Part shown: positions 15,847-37,727 of the stretch, piece by piece
How positions within the stretch are numbered: the first letter of the stretch is position 1
How the letters are laid out: every line of letters starts with the position of its first letter
Origin: Bdellovibrio sp. ZAP7
GTDB taxonomy: Bacteria > Bdellovibrionota > FAC87 > UBA2466
DNA length: 37,727 nucleotides
Assembly (NCBI GenBank): GCA_945878405.1
Contig: CAMCTJ010000018.1
Coordinates: 1 to 37,727, forward strand
Direction of reading: 5' to 3'
Program-made: the position numbers and the translations under genes
The notes under the pieces: model-generated
The model's input: only the letters and a program-made list of their open reading frames with translations
Databases searched by the model: none
Told to the model about the DNA's origin: nothing

Positions 15847-16143
15847 TTAGCGCATGCCATAGGGGTATTGTCCGTACCCACCATAGCCATTGTTTCCATA
15901 AGGTCGGTTATATCCATATCCACCACCGTAAGGATTTTGCTGTCCATATCCGCCATATCCACCGTAAGGATTTTGCTGTCCATATCCGCCATATCCACCA
16001 TAAGGATTCTGCTGTCCATATCCACCATAAGGATTTTGATTATATGGTTGCTGGATCTGCTGCGGGAGTTGCCCATTATTATTATCGCTTCCGCAGGCTG
16101 CTAAAAACATTAAACCGACCAAAAATACTAAGCCCTTTTTCAT
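15847..16143 (-). CDS. Small lipoprotein with Gly/Tyr/Gln/Asn/Pro repeats
   Basis: A 98-residue product with a lipoprotein signal: MKKGLVFLVGLMFLAAC, lipobox LAAC with C17. After a short Asn/Gln linker the rest is a tandem repeat of the 12-residue unit QQNPYGGYGGYG (about three copies) and related Gly/Tyr runs. There is no lysine after K3. RBS AGAGGGGA lies just upstream of ATG 16143. A TATACT box on the - strand (16185-16180) is a possible -10. The protein should be an exported, lipid-anchored, disordered chain; the sequence type resembles sticky or phase-separating low-complexity proteins, but function is unknown. A + strand open frame over the same DNA is only the antisense of the repeats. 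Confidence 0.75.
   Translation of the reverse strand: MKKGLVFLVGLMFLAACGSDNNNGQLPQQIQQPYNQNPYGGYGQQNPYGGYGGYGQQNPYGGYGGYGQQNPYGGGYGYNRPYGNNGYGGYGQYPYGMR
15923..16043 (-). repeat. 36-nt tandem repeat encoding the Gly/Tyr units
   Basis: Two perfect 36-nt copies start at 15923 and 15959, followed by a 27-nt partial at 15995 and a diverged copy at 16022. All lie in frame inside the lipoprotein gene, so copy number can change by multiples of 12 residues without a frameshift. Confidence 0.85.
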
Positions 16144-28148: not shown

Positions 28149-29345
28149 TTAATCGTGCTGTCTGCGCAAGAAAGTTGGAATGTCGTATTCTTCCGCCTGG
28201 AAGTATCTCTTTCCGATTTCTCGAGCTAACTGCTGAGCTGAGGTTAATGAAGGCGCTACTCCCTCTTGTTTTTGAACAGGAGGTGGAACGATGTTTTTGG
28301 AAACTGGACCTTCAGAAACCTGCATTGAAGCAGGCTGAGAAACTTCCTGCGTTCGAGTTTCGGGAATATGCACTTCCTGTTTAGCAGGAGGATTGAAACC
28401 CGTCGCAATGACAGTCACTCTGACTTCATCTTTAAGATTTTCATCAATCACTGAACCGAAAATAATTTCGGCATCTTCGTGAGCTTCTTCCGTAATCAGT
28501 GATGAAGCTTCGTTTACTTCAAACAAAGTAAGGTCTGCTCCGCCCGTGATGTTGATGATGATTCCAGTAGCTCCGTTAATGGCTACGTCTTCAAGTAGAG
28601 GTGACGAAATGGCTTTTCGAGCAGCTTCAATGGCTCGGTTTTCACCACCGGCAGAACCAGTCCCCATAAGAGCTAGTCCTTTATTGCACATCACGGTTCT
28701 TACATCCGCAAAATCCAAATTCACCAAACCGCGGATATTAATTAAATCGGAAATGCCTTTTACTGCTTGATAAAGCACTTCGTCTGCTTTCTTAAAACAA
28801 TCGAGCATTGTCGTTGTTTCGTTGGCGATATAAAGAAGGCGTTGGTTAGGAATGCAGATAAGAGTATCGACTGCATTTTTTAGCTCTTCGATACCGGCTT
28901 CAGCATTTTTCTTTCTCTTTTTACCTTCAAAATTGAAAGGCTTGGTCACAACCCCAACAGTAAGAGCTCCGATTTCTTTTGCAATATTTGCAATCACTGG
29001 AGCTGCACCGGTTCCCGTTCCACCGCCCATCCCTGCAGCGATGAAAACCATGTCAGCGCCTTGGAGCATTTCAGCAATTTTTGAGCAATCTTCAAGAGCG
29101 GCTTTTTTACCTACTTCTGGGTTGGCTCCCGCTCCTAGCCCTTTAGTTAACTCGTTGCCCAACTGAATATGAACCGGAGCTGGATTATGAACCAACGCTT
29201 GATTATCTGTGTTGGCTGCCATGAAATCCACGCCGTTGAGGCCCAAAGTAATCATCGTAGCGATAGCGTTGGTACCTCCGCCGCCGACTCCAACAACTTT
29301 AATTTTTGCGCCAAGGGGTGATTGCTTTTCTACGATTTCAAACAT
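28149..29345 (-). CDS. ftsZ: Cell division protein FtsZ
   Basis: A 398-residue tubulin-like GTPase that forms the division ring. The G-box GGGTGTG is at 107-113, with the N-terminal GVGGGGTNA (20-27) and ANTDNQAL. The T7 region [11 protein letters not shown] is intact. A Pro/Gln-rich linker from about 320 leads to the conserved C-terminal peptide [11 protein letters not shown], the docking site for FtsA. RBS AAGGAGAGG precedes ATG 29345. It follows ftsA by 33 nt and is the last gene of the cluster. Confidence 0.98.
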
Positions 29346-29378
29346 GGCCTCTCCTTCATTGATTGAATTAACCTGTTG

Positions 29379-30641
29379 CTAAAAAACTTCGCCTAGCCAG
29401 CCCTTCATTCGGGTCAGCATTTTGTCATAAACTAGTCCAAGATCGTGTGCCTTCACTTGCACGCCCGTTTGGTTTTTTATTCCGTACAAGAGTAACCCAA
29501 CGGCTGTCGAATAAAGTGGCGAACTCACAACATCCACCAGCCCACTCAGGTGGTTTGGAGCTCCCCGACGCACTGGGAGTTCAAATGTAAATTCAGCAAG
29601 CTCAGTGATTCCTTCCATCAACGAAGGACCCCCGGTGAGTACCACTCCGGAAGACAGCAGATGCTTGTATCCGCTGTTGGCAATCTCTTGGCTCACAAGG
29701 GATAAAATTTCTTCTACACGAGGCTCAATGATTTTTGTGAGTACTCCTCGGGAAATCTCACGGGACTTTCGTCCCCCTACTAAGGGTACTTCAATTATTT
29801 CATCAGCCGGAAGAAGTGAACTCATGGCACAACCAGAGCTGATTTTAATTTGTTCAGCATCCTGAATGGAACAACGTAAACCTACTGCGACATCATTAGT
29901 GATGTGGCTTCCACCCATTGAAATAACACCGGTGTGAACAACGCTCCCTTTGGAATAAAGAGCCACATCGGTCGTTCCACCGCCGATATCTACCAGAGCA
30001 ACGCCCAATTCTTTTTCGTCTGGCGTCAAACATGCTTCCGCAGCTGCTAGTGGCTCAAGAACGATGTCTGAAACCTGAATACCAGCAAGGTTTGCACACT
30101 TAATGATATTTTGCGCCGATGATACCGCGCCCGTGACAATATGAACCTTTGATTCTAATCGGACGCCATTCATTCCGATGGGATCATGAACTCCCTCTTG
30201 ATCATCCACCGTAAATTCCTGGGGAATCACATGGAGGACTTCTCTATCAAGAGGAATGGCAACGGCTCTTGCTGCATCGATAGCCCGTTCAACATCTAAC
30301 GCCGTTACCTCTTTGTTTTTGATGGCAACAACACCAGTGCTATTAAATCCTTTGATATGACTACCTGCGATGCCACATACCGCTTGTCTTACCGAGCAAC
30401 CTGACATCAGCTCGGCAATTTCGATTGCTTTTTTTAGTGCATCTACAGTGGCTGGAATGTTAACCACGACTCCTTTGCGGATACCGTGTGAAGGATGCTT
30501 TCCGACTCCCACAATCTCTAAACCATCAGGTCTCGGTTTAGCAATAACGACGCAGATTTTGGTCGTGCCAAAATCAATGCCGACAACTGTCTCCGCCTGT
30601 TTTGGAGCTTTGAGGAAGCCTGACATAGTTGCCTTCTCCAT
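29379..30641 (-). CDS. ftsA: Cell division protein FtsA
   Basis: An actin-like ATPase that tethers FtsZ to the membrane. It carries VVGIDFGTTKICVV (phosphate 1), the 1C domain region (EVLHVIPQEFTVD), VALVDIGGGTTDVALY (phosphate 2) and VVLTGGPSLMEG (adenosine), and ends in an amphipathic helix (MLTRMKGWLGEVF). Three starts are possible: TTG 30656, ATG 30641 and ATG 30626. ATG 30641 has GGAAAGG with a 6-nt gap; ATG 30626 has GGAGAAGG with a 5-nt gap. I chose 30641. A hairpin covers its RBS. Confidence 0.95.
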   Translation of the reverse strand: MEKATMSGFLKAPKQAETVVGIDFGTTKICVVIAKPRPDGLEIVGVGKHPSHGIRKGVVVNIPATVDALKKAIEIAELMSGCSVRQAVCGIAGSHIKGFNSTGVVAIKNKEVTALDVERAIDAARAVAIPLDREVLHVIPQEFTVDDQEGVHDPIGMNGVRLESKVHIVTGAVSSAQNIIKCANLAGIQVSDIVLEPLAAAEACLTPDEKELGVALVDIGGGTTDVALYSKGSVVHTGVISMGGSHITNDVAVGLRCSIQDAEQIKISSGCAMSSLLPADEIIEVPLVGGRKSREISRGVLTKIIEPRVEEILSLVSQEIANSGYKHLLSSGVVLTGGPSLMEGITELAEFTFELPVRRGAPNHLSGLVDVVSSPLYSTAVGLLLYGIKNQTGVQVKAHDLGLVYDKMLTRMKGWLGEVF

Positions 30642-30648
30642 GCCCATC

Positions 30649-30664
30649 CTTTCCAAATGGAAAG
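30649..30664 (-). promoter_or_regulatory. Hairpin over the ftsA ribosome binding site
   Basis: CTTTCC (30649-30654) and GGAAAG (30659-30664) pair perfectly around a 4-nt loop. On the - strand transcript the 3' arm of the stem is the GGAAAG of the ftsA RBS, so the stem could limit ftsA translation. The rest of the ftsQ-ftsA spacer holds no clear promoter. Confidence 0.4.
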
Positions 30665-30728
30665 AAACGGGAAAATTTACAGCGGTTTTAAACTTCTTAA
30701 AATCTTAGATAGGACTCTAACGCCAACT

Positions 30729-31508
30729 TTAGTGGGAAATTGCAGAACTGACAATAGCTTTTTTTGGAAAAACTAAATTGATTCTCCGGAGTTGGCCGAG
30801 TTGACTCGGTGGGTTGTCAATCAGTGCCACCAAGTTTTTCAATTGGGTTTCCCAATTTTCATAACTCCACCAAACTTCGATTTTTGGTTGTGAAAAGTAA
30901 GTTTTAAAATAGGGATATTTTCCTAAGACAATTTGAGATACAGAAAATTTTCCCTGGGAAAGTTTTTTCATCTTATCGTATTCAGAAAGCACTTCACCTA
31001 CGTTCCATTTTGTTGAAGAAGTTTCAACTGATAGAAAAGGAAGCTCAAGTCCTTTCAAAAAAGCTGGAGTGGCTCGTTCAATCAGTTGACCTTTCGGATC
31101 AATAAACCAAGGCTGCCCTTTCTGAACAATTAAAGCATGGGGTTTTTTAGCGCTGAGAGAAACATAAAGTCGATTGGGATAACTCTTTTTCACTGTGACC
31201 GTATCCACCCAAGGATGACTTTGAAGTGAGCGTGCGATTTGTTTTGAGTCGACTAACAAAATATTTTCGTTTTGGCTGGGAGCCATCCAGGACTTTACTT
31301 GATTTGCATCTAAAGGCCACTCGCTATCAATCTCGATTGTCTTAATATTAAGAAACTCTAAGCCAGATAAGAACTTTTTCACTCGAGTTTGATCGCTTGC
31401 CCAAGACCAGAATAATCCCCCACAAATAAGAGCCCCTACCGTTAGAACAAGATGAATACCTCGAATACCCGAACCTACTCTGATGGTTTCAGCTGAAGAT
31501 TGATTCAT
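30729..31508 (-). CDS. ftsQ: Cell division protein FtsQ
   Basis: A 259-residue bitopic protein: short cytoplasmic tail, one membrane helix at about 20-42 (LVLTVGALICGGLFWSWAS), a POTRA domain at about 50-120 (LNIKTIEIDSEWPLDANQV, HPWVDTVTVKKSYPNRLYVSL) and the beta domain with WFIDPKGQLIERA. FtsQ links early and late divisome proteins. It overlaps the upstream glycosyltransferase gene by 4 nt and lies 87 nt before ftsA. Confidence 0.92.
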   Translation of the reverse strand: MNQSSAETIRVGSGIRGIHLVLTVGALICGGLFWSWASDQTRVKKFLSGLEFLNIKTIEIDSEWPLDANQVKSWMAPSQNENILLVDSKQIARSLQSHPWVDTVTVKKSYPNRLYVSLSAKKPHALIVQKGQPWFIDPKGQLIERATPAFLKGLELPFLSVETSSTKWNVGEVLSEYDKMKKLSQGKFSVSQIVLGKYPYFKTYFSQPKIEVWWSYENWETQLKNLVALIDNPPSQLGQLRRINLVFPKKAIVSSAISH

Positions 31509-32512
31509 AGTGCTTGCCTGCTGTAATTTTGAGTTTGGTAAATGTTTCCTTTGAAGATGCTCAAAAACTGATCAGAAATTTTATCACTCGAAAAATTTTT
31601 CAAAGTATCTCGTTGAAATCTTACCCCCAACTCTTCACAAAGAGAGGGATGATTTTTTAAAGTGAGTATCAACTCAGCAATGGAACGTGTTTCTTCTTGT
31701 TGAAAAACAAATCCATTTACGGAATCTCTTACATACTTTTCAATTCCTGGAACATTACCACAAATGGGAACCGCCCCTATTGAAGCGGCCATAAGCAGGG
31801 CTCCAAAATGATCATTTTTCTGGGGGAAATAAAGAGCAACGTCACAAGATTCAGGCTCAACAAAATGGGAAGTGGGAACAATTTGAACTTGGTTTGAGAT
31901 TCCTAAATCGCTTGAGAGTTTGGATAAATGATCGACAAGGGGTCCCTTCCCCCAAAGCTTCAACTGAATTGAATCATCTCTTTTGGCCAGGTAATGCCCG
32001 ATGGTCAAAAGAAAGTGAAGGTTATTATCCGAAACGAAGGAACAATAAGCACCTACCGTAAACCGAGTTGATCTTTTCTCATTGGATTTCAACGGGGCAG
32101 GAAACGGTATCTGTTCTAGTTGAAGATCTGGCATTCCAGCGAGTTCTTTCAAAAAACGATAGCTTAAGGGGCTATGCGCCAAGAGCTTGATGTGGGCCGG
32201 AAGAACGGGATTGAGCGAATTAAACCAAGTCTCCCAAAGAGATACTTTTTGGACATTAGTCGACAGAACCGAAATGAAAATTTTCGATTTCGTCGAAAAG
32301 GCAGAAAGGTATTGAAGAGCCCCCCGCCAATCTCTGGAAACGATCCAAGAGGATTCATTTACTTTATGATGACGAAAAAAACCTTTTTCTCTCTCAGTTA
32401 CTTTAGTTTCCTGAATGGAAATCGACTTTCTTAATTCTTCAACGCAACTGCGAATACAGGCCTCTTCTTCAGGACAAATATCCGGAAACAAAAAGAGTCT
32501 GAGAGAGTTCAT
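31505..32512 (-). CDS. GT-B fold glycosyltransferase (family 4-like)
   Basis: The frame is open back to 32629, inside the upstream gene, but ATG 32512 (MNSLRLFLFPDICPEE) lies 10 nt after that gene ends and is preferred; its RBS is poor. The 335-residue product has a GT-B C-terminal domain: LKLWGKGPLVDHL, and DHFGALLMAASIGAVPICGNVPGIEKYVRDSVNGFVF, with the E/N-type nucleotide-sugar region of GT4 enzymes altered (H where E is usual). The N-terminal half is less conserved. No signal or membrane span. Acceptor and sugar are unknown. It overlaps ftsQ by 4 nt, so its expression is tied to division genes. Confidence 0.7.
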   Translation of the reverse strand: MNSLRLFLFPDICPEEEACIRSCVEELRKSISIQETKVTEREKGFFRHHKVNESSWIVSRDWRGALQYLSAFSTKSKIFISVLSTNVQKVSLWETWFNSLNPVLPAHIKLLAHSPLSYRFLKELAGMPDLQLEQIPFPAPLKSNEKRSTRFTVGAYCSFVSDNNLHFLLTIGHYLAKRDDSIQLKLWGKGPLVDHLSKLSSDLGISNQVQIVPTSHFVEPESCDVALYFPQKNDHFGALLMAASIGAVPICGNVPGIEKYVRDSVNGFVFQQEETRSIAELILTLKNHPSLCEELGVRFQRDTLKNFSSDKISDQFLSIFKGNIYQTQNYSRQAL

Positions 32513-32522
32513 TTGTGGACAA

Positions 32523-33569
32523 TTATAGCTTGCAATCGTTAATGAAGTCGATGAGCGAACGAAGACTTCCAAAATCCTTTCTATCGAAAGGGAAAACCAG
32601 TCGCGGCAGAGATTTGAGATCCGGTTCATTCTCTTCCTCAGGAAGAGCGGAACTCGCTACAATTTTTCCCAAGTGGGTAAGGGTTGGGAAAAGCTGATTT
32701 GCTTTCTTTATGTGAGCTGGTGACAGCTCTCTTTGAATTCTAATGGAAACCTTATCTCCTACAAAGCGCATCGAATGATAGTTACGGTAAAAATGCGCGA
32801 TATGATCAAGAGCATCGGCTTCTGTATTAAAAATGTGATAAAGGGCTTGATCGCTTTTTGAGATAAAACCTTTTTTGAGCATCACATCTTTCATGAACTT
32901 CACTAGGGGAGCCCAAAAGCCAAACCCTTTTGGTTCCATAAAAACCACAGGAATCATGTTGGTCTTGCCCGTTTGAAGAAGTGTCAGAACTTCAAAAGCC
33001 TCGTCAAAAGTTCCAAATCCGCCTGGGAAAAAGACGAAAGCCGCTGCTTCTTTCACAAGAAACAGCTTTCTGGTGAAAAAGTACTTGTAGTTAATAAGGT
33101 GTTTTTCAGTATCTATAAACTGATTGGCAGATTGCTCCCACGGAAGACGAATATTGAGGCCAAACCCGTGGTTTTCAGCCCCTTCATTGCCCGCGGCCAT
33201 GATTCCGGGACCTCCCCCGGTAATGATCATGTAGTTCCGCTTCACGGCTTCCGCTGCAAATTTTTTCGCCATGCGATATAGCGGCTTTTCCGGAGGGATC
33301 CGAGCTGAACCAAATATCGTGATCTTGGGAAGATGTTTATAGGGAGCAAACTTTTTAAATGAATACCTCAGTTCTTTGAGAACCGATGACGAAATTTTCA
33401 AATTCAAAGTGCCCGGACTATCTTGAGTCAGCTTCAAAGCCGAGCGGAAGATATCTGCCAGAATTCTTTGTCGAGCAGGACTATGCGCGGAGGAGAGGGC
33501 TTTGAATTGAGTCTCTATTTCCTGCCAATCCATCAGTTGGTCTTTGTTATTTTTCTTTGACGTGGTCAA
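32523..33569 (-). CDS. LOG family protein (TIGR00730-like)
   Basis: A 348-residue protein with the LOG Rossmann-like core: GGGPGIM at 118-124 and PGGFGTFDE at 182-190, the nucleotide-binding and catalytic motifs of cytokinin-nucleoside 5'-monophosphate phosphoribohydrolases, often misnamed lysine decarboxylases. Bacterial members act as nucleotide N-glycosidases; the real substrate here is unknown. It is longer than typical LOG proteins (about 190) at both ends, like the group that includes PpnN-type proteins. TTG 33569 or ATG 33533 could start it; both RBSs are weak. It heads the division cluster. Confidence 0.88.
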   Translation of the reverse strand: MTTSKKNNKDQLMDWQEIETQFKALSSAHSPARQRILADIFRSALKLTQDSPGTLNLKISSSVLKELRYSFKKFAPYKHLPKITIFGSARIPPEKPLYRMAKKFAAEAVKRNYMIITGGGPGIMAAGNEGAENHGFGLNIRLPWEQSANQFIDTEKHLINYKYFFTRKLFLVKEAAAFVFFPGGFGTFDEAFEVLTLLQTGKTNMIPVVFMEPKGFGFWAPLVKFMKDVMLKKGFISKSDQALYHIFNTEADALDHIAHFYRNYHSMRFVGDKVSIRIQRELSPAHIKKANQLFPTLTHLGKIVASSALPEEENEPDLKSLPRLVFPFDRKDFGSLRSLIDFINDCKL

Positions 33570-33613
33570 ATCAGTTTGCCTGCCTTCCTGGTTTCAACGA
33601 TAATCAAGAGACT

Positions 33614-34852
33614 GTGAACCCTCTTGCGCCTCAAATTCGCAAACTACATTTAATTCAAATTGTGGCTGCTTTGTTGGGTACTGCCCTGAGTATCTACCTG
33701 TTAGTGCATCATACCCGAGTCAAATTAGGAATCCAAGATTCCTCTAGTTTCTGTTCTTTTGGCGGACTTGCGGATTGTGACGTCGTTAACGTTTCAAAAT
33801 ACTCCGAAGTAGCTGGAGTTCCTCTAGCGGCCATCGGAGCGATCTACTTTTTTGTTCTGTTGATTTTGGGAATTCTTATCCCTCCCAGAAATCCTAACTT
33901 TCAATTGGTGAATCGATTTTTAGCTTGGTTAAGCTTAATTGCCCTTTTGATAGATTTGTTTCTGCTGGTCGGGGTCCAATGGCTAATGCTCAAAAGCTTC
34001 TGTCTGATGTGTATTTTGACCTATTTGGCTAATCTGGCTCACTTGGGTGCTAATTTCAGACAAACTCAGCTGCAGTACAAGTCTCACCTTCTTCAAAATC
34101 TGTTCTGGGGAAATAGACCTTGGTCACTCCGGCAGTTTTCTTCTTCGCGGTTTGTGATGGCACTGATCTCAATTATCGCTTTTTCAGGCTTACTTTTATT
34201 TCTACCCTCTTGGATCGAATTAAAAAATGGACAAGCGGGTCAAGCAAAAGAAGCTGCTTCAGACTTTCTTTCCCAGTGGTCGCAACTACCGGTACAAGAA
34301 GTATCCATTGGGCCCGAGGACAGCACCTCTGGAAATCCAGAAGCAAAAGTTAAGATAGTTGTCTTTAGTGATTTTCAGTGCCCTTTTTGCAAGAAAACTG
34401 CTTTTAGTTTGCACACACTTCTTCCCTCTTTCAAAAATGAAATTTGGGTGGCTTTTAAAAATTTCCCATTAGACCGCACCTGTAATTCATTAGTGCAACA
34501 CAACATGCACCCTTACGCTTGTTCCCTAGCGAGACTTTCTGTTTGCGCTAATAAAAAAGGAAATTTTTGGGAGTATCATGACCAGGTTTTCATGCACATT
34601 GATGAAGGAGATCTCGAAGGCGGTTGGGACGTTATTCGTAAAAAGCTGGCATCGGTCTTTACCGGTGCTGAAATTGATGAGTGCTTGAGAAATCCGGAGA
34701 CTTTGAACCCCGTTCAAAAAGATATCGACTTAGGAATTCAATTAGGAATCCAGGGAACGCCTGCCGTTTTTATCAATGGAAGATTAGTGTCTGTACCTTT
34801 AGATATGGACACGCTTCGTAAGATCATTTCTTTAGAAAACCACCAAAAGTAA
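33614..34852 (+). CDS. VKOR-DsbA fusion, disulfide-forming membrane protein
   Basis: GTG 33614 with AAGAG upstream is preferred over TTG 33557, which overlaps the divergent LOG gene. The 412-residue product joins a VKOR domain (about 10-145, four membrane helices) to a DsbA-like thioredoxin domain (about 230-405). VKOR has the loop pair C47/C55 and the CLMC active site C130/C133; DsbA has CPFC at C256/C259 and a cis-Pro in GIQGTPAVF near 387. Such fusions oxidise periplasmic cysteines and pass electrons to quinone. It lies 11 nt before a membrane protein with a Cys-rich tail. A further membrane helix lies at about 183-200. Confidence 0.92.
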   Translation: MNPLAPQIRKLHLIQIVAALLGTALSIYLLVHHTRVKLGIQDSSSFCSFGGLADCDVVNVSKYSEVAGVPLAAIGAIYFFVLLILGILIPPRNPNFQLVNRFLAWLSLIALLIDLFLLVGVQWLMLKSFCLMCILTYLANLAHLGANFRQTQLQYKSHLLQNLFWGNRPWSLRQFSSSRFVMALISIIAFSGLLLFLPSWIELKNGQAGQAKEAASDFLSQWSQLPVQEVSIGPEDSTSGNPEAKVKIVVFSDFQCPFCKKTAFSLHTLLPSFKNEIWVAFKNFPLDRTCNSLVQHNMHPYACSLARLSVCANKKGNFWEYHDQVFMHIDEGDLEGGWDVIRKKLASVFTGAEIDECLRNPETLNPVQKDIDLGIQLGIQGTPAVFINGRLVSVPLDMDTLRKIISLENHQK

Positions 34853-34863
34853 GGCCGTACCTT
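34842..34863 (+). repeat. 22-bp direct repeat, copy A
   Basis: Identical in 20 of 22 positions to 36703-36724. It covers the last three codons and stop of the VKOR-DsbA gene and ends directly at the ATG of the next gene. It includes the RBS TAAGG (34851-34855 area) of that gene, and AAGG can pair with CCTT at its end, a short stem. Confidence 0.7.
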
Positions 34864-36690
34864 ATGGCAGAGAAACAAACGAAACTTTGGGAAAAGTTAT
34901 CGCTGTTCTTTCTGGTTTTGATCTTTATTGGTCTGAATCATACCAAAATGGATGAAAATGATACTTGGTGGCATATCGCTTTGGGCAGGTGGATGGTGCA
35001 AAACCATCAGATTTATCAAACTGAAATTTTTAGTCAGATTGGACTCGGAAAGCCGTTCATTGCACATGAGTGGCTTTCTGAGGTTCTCTTTTATGCATTC
35101 TCAAGCCCGTCAGGCAGGTTGTTGAGCTTCTTAAAGCTATCTCTGATCGTAAGTTGTTGTTTTGGCTTGTTCTGCTTTTTTGTGAAACCTTATCTCAAAG
35201 GAAAGCTATCTCTTTATTTGATGTTGGGCGCAGCTTTTCTCGTAGCCTTTAGAGCTCCGGTTCGACCTCAGCTTTTTGAAATCATCTGTGTGTCCTATCT
35301 TTTGGTCATTTTAAATTTCTGGAAGGAAAATCCGAGCTGGAAATGGCTGGTAGCTTTACTTCCGGTTCAAATTCTTTGGGCAAATCTGCATGGATCTTAT
35401 CTTTTAGGGCCAGTTCTTTTTTTTCTTTTTGCATGTGGCCTTACCCTTTCACAAAATTTTCCTTTTTTGCCGGGGGATTCTCTTAAAACTTATTCCTCGA
35501 AAGATGTCCTGAGTCTTTTTCTTTGGTCTGGCTTACTTTTAGCAAGTTCTCTTTTAAACCCTTTTCACTTTGAGCTAATTAAAAAATCTTTTTCGGTCTT
35601 CTTCTTGGACAGTTACATGAAGGAATATATTCGAGAGTGGTTCAGCGTTACTCGAGTGGAAAAGGGGATTTGGTTCTATGTTTGGTTAGGCTGGATAGTT
35701 TGGGCTTGGGTTTCGCTTGTTAGGTCTTTTAGTAGAGTTTCCCAAGTTGAGCTTTACACTTTGATTTTAGCGACTGTTTTCCCTTTCATGGGGGTTCGCT
35801 ATATCACTCTTTCGACGCTGTTGAGTTTTCCGGATGTTTTGAAACGTTCTTACGCTCTTTACCCAAAGGGGTTTAAACCAAAGACAGCCTGCTTCTTGAT
35901 GGCCCCGCTGACTGCTCTCTTTTTCTGGGTGGGGTATCCCATGACGTTGACCGCAGCTAATCCCCCAGGATCTGGGTTTAGCTTTGGAGTGGTTCCCACA
36001 GATATTATCCAGCACATCAAAGCAAACGGGATTAAGGGTGTCATGATGAATCATTATCATGATGGGGCTTTTATTTTGTATTACCTTCATCCAGATGTAC
36101 TACCTGTTATTGATTCGCGTACCGATTTCTATGGAAAGGAATTATTTTTAGAGCACAGTGAGGCTTACACTTCGATGCCGCTTTTTAATCAGTATGTAAA
36201 AAAATATAATGTGAATTTAGCGCTCGTCAGAATGATTCCAGAAACGGAAGTACTAAGACGGAATCTTTTTGAAAGTCCCGATTGGACACTCGAAAAATTT
36301 GGCTTAGATAATATGCTTTTTGTGAAGGCCGACTCTTCTCATCCGAGAAAAACAATGGAGGAAATGACCCAAGATCTAACTTTACTTGCCCAAAAATCTC
36401 GTTCCACTGACATGCCGATTAGTTCCGGAACCGCTTATTGTGGTTGGATTCGCCTCTTTGGTCATTGTGAACTTGCGTCAGAATGTAGAAAAGAATGCGA
36501 GCTTTCCGATGAAATGCTGGGGGTGGAGTTAGGGGGTATTTCGCCTTTATGTTTTAAATTTTCACAAGTGTGCTTCAGAAAAGAAACGGCCTGTGGTCCC
36601 TGCCCTTCTTTGTGTGATTTGTATAGCCGGTCGGTCGATCGGATTAATCGACTCGGGTTCCACTATCCGAATATAGGTGGGTGTTCTTAA
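34864..36690 (+). CDS. Polytopic GT-C-like membrane protein with Cys-rich C-terminal tail
   Basis: A 608-residue protein. About ten hydrophobic helices lie between residues 10 and 365. The first loop has DENDTWWHIALGRWMVQNHQ and then AHEWLSEVLFY, a pattern I associate with a large group of uncharacterised GT-C-like membrane proteins, where DxDxWW would sit in the periplasm. After the last helix come a soluble domain (about 370-510) with LPVIDSRTDFYG and a tail from 526 to 607 with ten cysteines, ending at GGCS. The tail is not a known part of that group as far as I recall. The preceding gene is VKOR-DsbA, 11 nt away, so disulfide formation in the tail is likely. Sugar transfer is an inference, not shown. 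Confidence 0.7.
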   Translation: MAEKQTKLWEKLSLFFLVLIFIGLNHTKMDENDTWWHIALGRWMVQNHQIYQTEIFSQIGLGKPFIAHEWLSEVLFYAFSSPSGRLLSFLKLSLIVSCCFGLFCFFVKPYLKGKLSLYLMLGAAFLVAFRAPVRPQLFEIICVSYLLVILNFWKENPSWKWLVALLPVQILWANLHGSYLLGPVLFFLFACGLTLSQNFPFLPGDSLKTYSSKDVLSLFLWSGLLLASSLLNPFHFELIKKSFSVFFLDSYMKEYIREWFSVTRVEKGIWFYVWLGWIVWAWVSLVRSFSRVSQVELYTLILATVFPFMGVRYITLSTLLSFPDVLKRSYALYPKGFKPKTACFLMAPLTALFFWVGYPMTLTAANPPGSGFSFGVVPTDIIQHIKANGIKGVMMNHYHDGAFILYYLHPDVLPVIDSRTDFYGKELFLEHSEAYTSMPLFNQYVKKYNVNLALVRMIPETEVLRRNLFESPDWTLEKFGLDNMLFVKADSSHPRKTMEEMTQDLTLLAQKSRSTDMPISSGTAYCGWIRLFGHCELASECRKECELSDEMLGVELGGISPLCFKFSQVCFRKETACGPCPSLCDLYSRSVDRINRLGFHYPNIGGCS

Positions 36691-36702: not shown

Positions 36703-36724
36703 ACCAAAAGGTAGGCCGTACCTT
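36703..36724 (+). repeat. 22-bp direct repeat, copy B, with alternative hairpins
   Basis: This copy lies between two convergent genes. It forms AAAGGTA/TACCTTT (36707-36713 with 36719-36725, 5-nt loop) or, exclusive of this, CTACC/GGTAG (36701-36705 with 36710-36714). Read on the - strand it follows the stop of the surface protein gene and has TTTT after the stem, so it may act as a terminator. Confidence 0.7.
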
Positions 36725-37727
36725 TAGTAGGTCACGGAAATATTAGAGTTGGAAGCGGAGCCGCCGGGGTTGGTTACCACAATCGCTTGAGCGCCAGCGG
36801 ATTTGCTTGGCAATGTGCAGATGATTTCGTTGGGGCCTTGGACCGTGGTGGAAGTGCAAGCCGTGCCTCCGATGGTGACGGTGGCGTCTTTTCTAAAGCC
36901 AGAGCCGAAAATGATGGCGTTCATTCCGGAAGTGCCGCCAGTGTTCGGTGTGACGGAAGTGACAGCAGGAGTAGAATTCGTTTCCGCGCGGCGGAAGACG
37001 TAGGCGGCGCCTGATTGATCTGCCCCATTGCCCGCACTGGTCGTTCCGTTGGTGATGGTCGTTTGAGTAGAGGCTTCTCTGTAAGCCCCCACGACTATCG
37101 TGTCACCGGAAATTGCGGTGGAACAACCAAAGAAGTCACTACTTTCACTATTGGAAGCTTTTAAGTAAGCTTCTTGTGTCCACGCATTCCCTGTTCGTTT
37201 AAATACATAAGCGGCTCCTGAAGAAATTGCCCCATTGCCGGCACTGGTCGTCCCGTTGGTGATGGTCGTTTGAGTAGAATCTTCTCCGTAAGCCCCCACG
37301 ACTATCGTGTCACCGGATATCGCGGTGGAATAACCAAATAGGTCATTACTTTCACTATTCGAAGCTTTTAAGTACGCCTCCTGGTACCACCCCGTCGTGG
37401 CAGTAGTCGTCACTCCACTCGAGAATTGCCCATACGTATCTCTTGCGCAAACTCTAAAGGCGTAATCGGTGGCTGCGGCTACTGTAATCGCAGCGCTTGT
37501 GCTACTTCCAATCGTGGTGTGAGAAACGACAGTCCCACTCTCGCAATCCGCTGGCGCCGTGCTTCCTGCTTGATACGCCACTTGGAATTTATCGGTCGTT
37601 CCACCACCACTGTTCCAACTGAGCGTAATCTGCGTGCTGTGGTCGACTGTGGCCGTGAAACTGGATGGGTCTGGAGGCGGCGCTGGAAGAAGCGTGATAT
37701 CGTCGGAAGCACACGAAGAAGCATTGC
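36724..37727 (-). CDS. FnIII/FG-GAP/IPT surface protein, C-terminal part (5' truncated)
   Basis: The frame is open to the window edge, so the real start lies beyond it; the GTG at 37581 is internal. About 334 residues are visible. Order: a Pro-rich linker, a fibronectin type III domain (SSFTATVDHSTQITLSWNSG to DYAFRVCARDTYGQF), two FG-GAP-like repeats (FGYSTAISGDTIVVGA and FGCSTAISGDTIVVGA), and a C-terminal IPT/TIG domain (AVTSVTPNTGGTSGMNAIIFGSGF). This is the build of secreted or cell-surface proteins; adhesion or prey contact is possible but not shown. It ends at TAA 36726-36724, next to a hairpin. Confidence 0.85.
   Translation of the reverse strand, partial: NASSCASDDITLLPAPPPDPSSFTATVDHSTQITLSWNSGGGTTDKFQVAYQAGSTAPADCESGTVVSHTTIGSSTSAAITVAAATDYAFRVCARDTYGQFSSGVTTTATTGWYQEAYLKASNSESNDLFGYSTAISGDTIVVGAYGEDSTQTTITNGTTSAGNGAISSGAAYVFKRTGNAWTQEAYLKASNSESSDFFGCSTAISGDTIVVGAYREASTQTTITNGTTSAGNGADQSGAAYVFRRAETNSTPAVTSVTPNTGGTSGMNAIIFGSGFRKDATVTIGGTACTSTTVQGPNEIICTLPSKSAGAQAIVVTNPGGSASNSNISVTY
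37022..37382 (-). repeat. 207-nt repeats encoding FG-GAP units
   Basis: The DNA from 37022 to 37175 is repeated at 37229 to 37382 with high identity, a period of 207 nt (69 residues, in frame). The near identity at DNA level suggests recent duplication or gene conversion, and more copies may lie beyond the window. Confidence 0.8.

Follow-up and report, generated by a model that had tools for sequence, protein, structure and literature searches.

The VKOR-DsbA fusion and the GT-C-like membrane protein coded directly behind it are quite probably neighbours of different history, a general oxidase beside which a sporadic membrane protein with a cysteine-rich tail has been inserted, the latter being one client of many. 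This explanation builds on the identity of the enzyme, the conservation of the tail, its restriction to one genus and the gene order in relatives, as observed in the window (the whole stretch of 37,727 nucleotides that was analysed) and in related genomes, and it would add to them a GT-C activity, a periplasmic side and disulfides for the tail, a client relation, a role of the tail and an insertion event.

The membrane protein and its C-terminal tail

The membrane-protein gene (34864..36690, plus strand) codes for a GT-C-like polytopic protein of 608 aa with a core of residues 1-520. The coordinates and counts confirmed the description given in the earlier note, of a 608-residue protein 11 nt after the fusion with ten cysteines in its last 82 residues: the VKOR-DsbA stop is at 34852 and the membrane-protein ATG at 34864 on the same strand. 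Full-length orthologues were found in two congeners, L006 (G002:C256, Lake Lanier MAG LLD_281) and L007 (G001:C68, MAG LLD_190), which are 73% and 68% identical, respectively. No model matched the protein in a Pfam and NCBIfam scan, no relevant match was obtained from a PDB sequence search, and PHROGs returned for the whole protein one chance-level match only (E 0.042, residues 74-117). A profile search with the core identified relatives in 48 of the 369 genomes of the phylum. The full-length AlphaFold2 model, built from three sequences, had a pLDDT of 38 and was unusable.

The hydropathy averaged over 27 homologues was compatible with 11 membrane segments, a count reached after overlapping raw hydrophobic stretches were merged by eye, with 10 or 12 segments placing the tail inside. 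The odd count of 11 would put the N-terminus inside and the C-terminus outside, and thus the tail in the periplasm. Among the most conserved core residues were D33, W70, R134, W172, N174, H176, P233, E258 and R312, and D33, located in the first outer loop, was kept in at least 80% of the 27 homologues. With D33 as an acidic residue of the first outer loop and a C-terminal part predicted to lie outside, the membrane protein is a candidate GT-C enzyme.

Ten of the 16 cysteines of the protein fall in the tail, residues 526-608 (36439..36690, plus strand), at positions 526, 535, 541, 545, 563, 570, 577, 580, 584 and 607, with 8, 5, 3, 17, 6, 6, 2, 3 and 22 residues between successive ones. None of the ten varies among the three congeners, whereas only two of the ten cysteine columns outside the tail are invariant, and the codons of the ten switch only between TGT and TGC, while the pairwise codon differences over the tail were 107 synonymous and 72 non-synonymous. 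The invariant cysteines together with the codon differences, taken from three tail sequences, point to a maintained domain. By single-sequence and profile searches, all three genomes of the genus had the tail and the 366 others of the phylum lacked it; outside the genus, the 369 phylum genomes gave chance-level matches only (E of at least 0.0018 per genome, many frames with stops). No tail was found in viral contigs, and Pfam and PHROGs searches with the tail gave no match. The best structure model of the tail reached a pLDDT of 72, in comparison to 31 to 53 for the other four, and Foldseek found no fold match for this weak model. The earlier note had raised the possibility of a new domain, and on these sequence comparisons the tail is a real, selected and genus-specific domain without known family match, conserved, with an even number of cysteines, probably located in the periplasm and probably disulfide-bonded, with about five disulfides.

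Among the relatives of the core family the C-terminal extension varies, being absent, TPR-like or short, and the ten-cysteine tail is the genus's own version of this variable region. A cysteine pair of the form C-x3-[NHD]-P-x4-C occurs in the tails of five relatives (L084, L089, L091, L092, L096), with a sixth copy in the tail of L076 in which S replaces [NHD], in comparison to no match in 35,191 other residues. The pair is probably a disulfide in the TPR-like extension, and such recurrent pairs support the view that the C-terminal region lies in an oxidising compartment throughout the family. A membrane family that has no model and whose C-terminal tails repeatedly gain cysteines is likely a set of disulfide-dependent envelope enzymes.

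The tail might instead bind a metal or a cluster through reduced thiolates rather than form a disulfide domain, as its C-x2-C-x3-C motif, in CGPCPSLC, and a borderline match to the PDB chain Non-structural protein V (E 0.09 to 0.13), which is zinc-binding, would suggest. That match is weak, however, and the probable periplasmic location and the recurrent cysteine pairs in the tails of relatives argue against reduced thiolates, as does the ready oxidation of thiols where VKOR-DsbA works, which makes this alternative unlikely.

The VKOR-DsbA fusion and its gene neighbourhood

The VKOR-DsbA gene (33557..34852, plus strand) starts at a TTG at 33557, from which the open frame is 431 aa, or, more likely, at a GTG at 33614. 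The Pfam scan matched VKOR (E 7.5e-20), Thioredoxin_4 (9.3e-17) and DSBA (4.2e-13). Both cysteine pairs of the VKOR domain are present (66/74 and 149/152 in the 431-aa frame), and the C-terminal DsbA-like domain carries its CXXC as CPFC at 275-278, with 275/278 as the third pair; counted from the GTG, the three pairs are C47/C55, C130/C133 and C256/C259. The Pfam matches and the cysteine positions thus agree with the earlier description of a complete fusion with these active pairs. As an enzyme for disulfide formation the fusion is complete, and it is the general periplasmic disulfide oxidase found across the family. A second VKOR protein is coded in the window's genome (L053:7433-9493, contig C7); it has 687 aa, with VKOR followed by AhpC-TSA/Redoxin thioredoxin-like domains, and a congener has a related 701-aa VKOR protein (L056:6523-8628) in the same setting.

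Divergent from VKOR-DsbA lies a LOG-type (lysine_decarbox) gene (32523..33569, minus strand), identified by Pfam and by the same neighbour in eight genomes, and then a GT4 - ftsQ - ftsA - ftsZ block (28149..32629, minus strand), in which GT4, ftsQ and ftsA were assigned by Pfam and NCBIfam with synteny, and the name ftsZ comes from synteny and the N-terminal sequence instead of a family search. This order was the same as in the window in all eight family/order neighbourhoods (G001, G002, G003, G006, G007, G008, G009 and G014; loci L045-L052), and VKOR-DsbA homologues were found in 58 of 59 related genomes, with or without a tail protein there. Directly downstream of VKOR-DsbA in G001, G002, G006, G008 and G014 is a gene of about 500 to 550 aa, not the membrane protein; two copies of this gene were scanned against Pfam and had no match. 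VKOR-DsbA is ancient in its position and, across the family, mostly without the membrane protein. The constant linkage to ftsQAZ suggests some connection of disulfide formation with cell division. For this lineage it may hint that division proteins are among the clients, as they are reported to be in mycobacteria, in which VKOR loss was linked to division defects (PMC12421883). A search of the literature on VKOR gene context found nothing direct.

The adjacency of VKOR-DsbA and the tail protein was observed in one of the three congeners, and in both others the tail protein and VKOR-DsbA are on different contigs. In G001 the membrane-protein gene has mraY/murD on one side and, on the other, a Rieske oxygenase with murF/murE behind it (the mraY and mur names come from sequence appearance and synteny), and in G002 its contig, 4.4 kb long, also codes for an fn3/DUF285 protein in convergent orientation, which gives three settings for three species. 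The earlier note had proposed a dedicated system, with VKOR-DsbA specialised in folding the tail and the two forming an envelope-modifying unit, for which the 11-nt gap on the same strand, the even cysteine number and the precedent of a GT-C client of DsbA-VKOR (EmbB, a GT-C enzyme) can be cited. Two of the three tail genomes are without the VKOR neighbour, though all three encode the enzyme, and such a distribution is one that the earlier note had itself named as refuting its proposal. VKOR-DsbA stands beside LOG-GT4-ftsQAZ family-wide, usually without the membrane protein. The dedicated pair was therefore rejected on gene order, that is, the near-universal homologues and the fixed synteny; it is largely refuted, and we give it very little probability. 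The story of an enzyme and its private client gives way to a gene-order history that can be tested.

Origin of the arrangement in the window

Convergent with the membrane-protein gene in the window is the 3' end of a repeat-protein gene (36724..37727, minus strand; Pfam fn3, FG-GAP_2 and TIG), which is cut by the contig end. The window's genome has kept the gene that usually follows VKOR-DsbA; it lies on contig C14 and is itself followed by its customary downstream genes. Next to it, a frame that starts like a lipoprotein and contains fn3-like repeats extends over at least 2,000 residues and is still open where the contig ends. This giant frame is the probable 5' part of the fn3/FG-GAP/TIG gene of the window; no overlap was found between the ends of C14 and of the window contig. 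Around mraY in the window's genome, no membrane-protein gene was found. The simplest reading of these sequences is that the membrane-protein gene and the giant repeat-protein gene would have been inserted, in this species specifically, behind VKOR-DsbA, parting it from its old neighbour, the event being inferred across the unclosed contig gap (C14-C18).

In two of the three species the membrane-protein gene faces a large fn3-repeat gene in convergent orientation (window 36724-37727; L006:2120-4372; L104). Their products are possible substrates of the membrane protein, and the genes themselves are a possible cause of the contig breaks. Elsewhere in the window, a tandem 36-bp repeat of about three copies (15910-16029) lies inside a small lipoprotein-like ORF (15847-16143, minus strand).

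Proposed function and comparison with known systems

In the proposed mechanism, VKOR oxidises the fused DsbA domain with quinone, and the DsbA domain in turn oxidises exported clients. Within the genus, a sporadic GT-C-like protein would have acquired a C-terminal domain that lies in the periplasm and is held together by about five disulfides, and in this species its gene, probably with the gene of a giant fn3 surface protein, would have been inserted directly downstream of VKOR-DsbA, with which it may be co-transcribed, as the 11-nt spacing suggests. Very likely it is the oxidase that folds the tail, along with many other clients. The most likely role of the tail is to stabilise the periplasmic face of a transferase modifying an envelope or surface molecule, or to dock an acceptor there; the giant fn3 neighbour present in two of the three species is a weak candidate for the target of this putative transferase.

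A divergent cysteine-rich domain (CRD) of the Frizzled type is a scarcely probable identity for the tail. The best PDB matches of the window and L007 tails were the Frizzled-2/7 CRDs (E 0.02 to 0.04; 0.05 with the profile), and the Frizzled CRD (PF01392) likewise has ten cysteines, with the spacings C-x8-C, C-x6-C and C-x3-C and the motif GFx[WY]Px4C in common with the tail; when neighbouring cysteines are compared, the spacings of C1, C2, C4, C5, C6, C7 and C9 agree within one residue. When the window and L007 tails were compared with six Fz CRDs, of which FZD8 alone was checked against PDB, their mean similarity was also greater than that of all 1000 shuffles with fixed cysteines, in a test that is not independent because Frizzled had been chosen as the best database match. 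The L006 tail, however, has no such match, the hhalign probability was 19.5% in local and 0.9% in global mode, the Pfam Fz profile was unmatched at E<=10, and Foldseek of the AlphaFold2 tail model, a poor one, found no CRD, leaving no significant profile or fold match. The tail is also shorter than the CRD, it has a far shorter counterpart of the Fz helix that joins C2 to C3, C8 and C10 are missing and there are three extra cysteines, which leaves two to three cysteines unmatched. A search of the literature on bacterial Frizzled domains found nothing direct. If true, which we doubt strongly, a bacterial CRD binding a lipid or an acceptor and fused to a GT-C-like enzyme would put a Frizzled-type domain outside eukaryotes.

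In the preferred reading, of a general oxidase with an inserted client beside it, both partners can be compared with known systems. Synechococcus VKOR, a bacterial fusion of VKOR with a thioredoxin domain, has the same VKOR loop cysteine pair and CXXC and a fused DsbA-like domain with CPFC, and in comparison to known bacterial VKOR-DsbA fusions the enzyme of the window is an ordinary member, with a conserved place beside ftsQAZ in its family. The GT-C glycosyltransferases (PMT, ArnT, EmbB, AglB) are likewise polytopic, with about 11 segments, a soluble C-terminal part and, in the first outer loop, a conserved acidic residue, whereas the membrane protein has no detectable sequence match to their Pfam, NCBIfam or PDB members. 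Mycobacterial EmbB is likewise a multi-pass envelope enzyme with periplasmic cysteines, and its stability depends on DsbA-VKOR (PMC12421883). In comparison to the four periplasmic cysteines of EmbB, which form two disulfides (PMC12421883), the protein of the window carries ten in its C-terminal tail.
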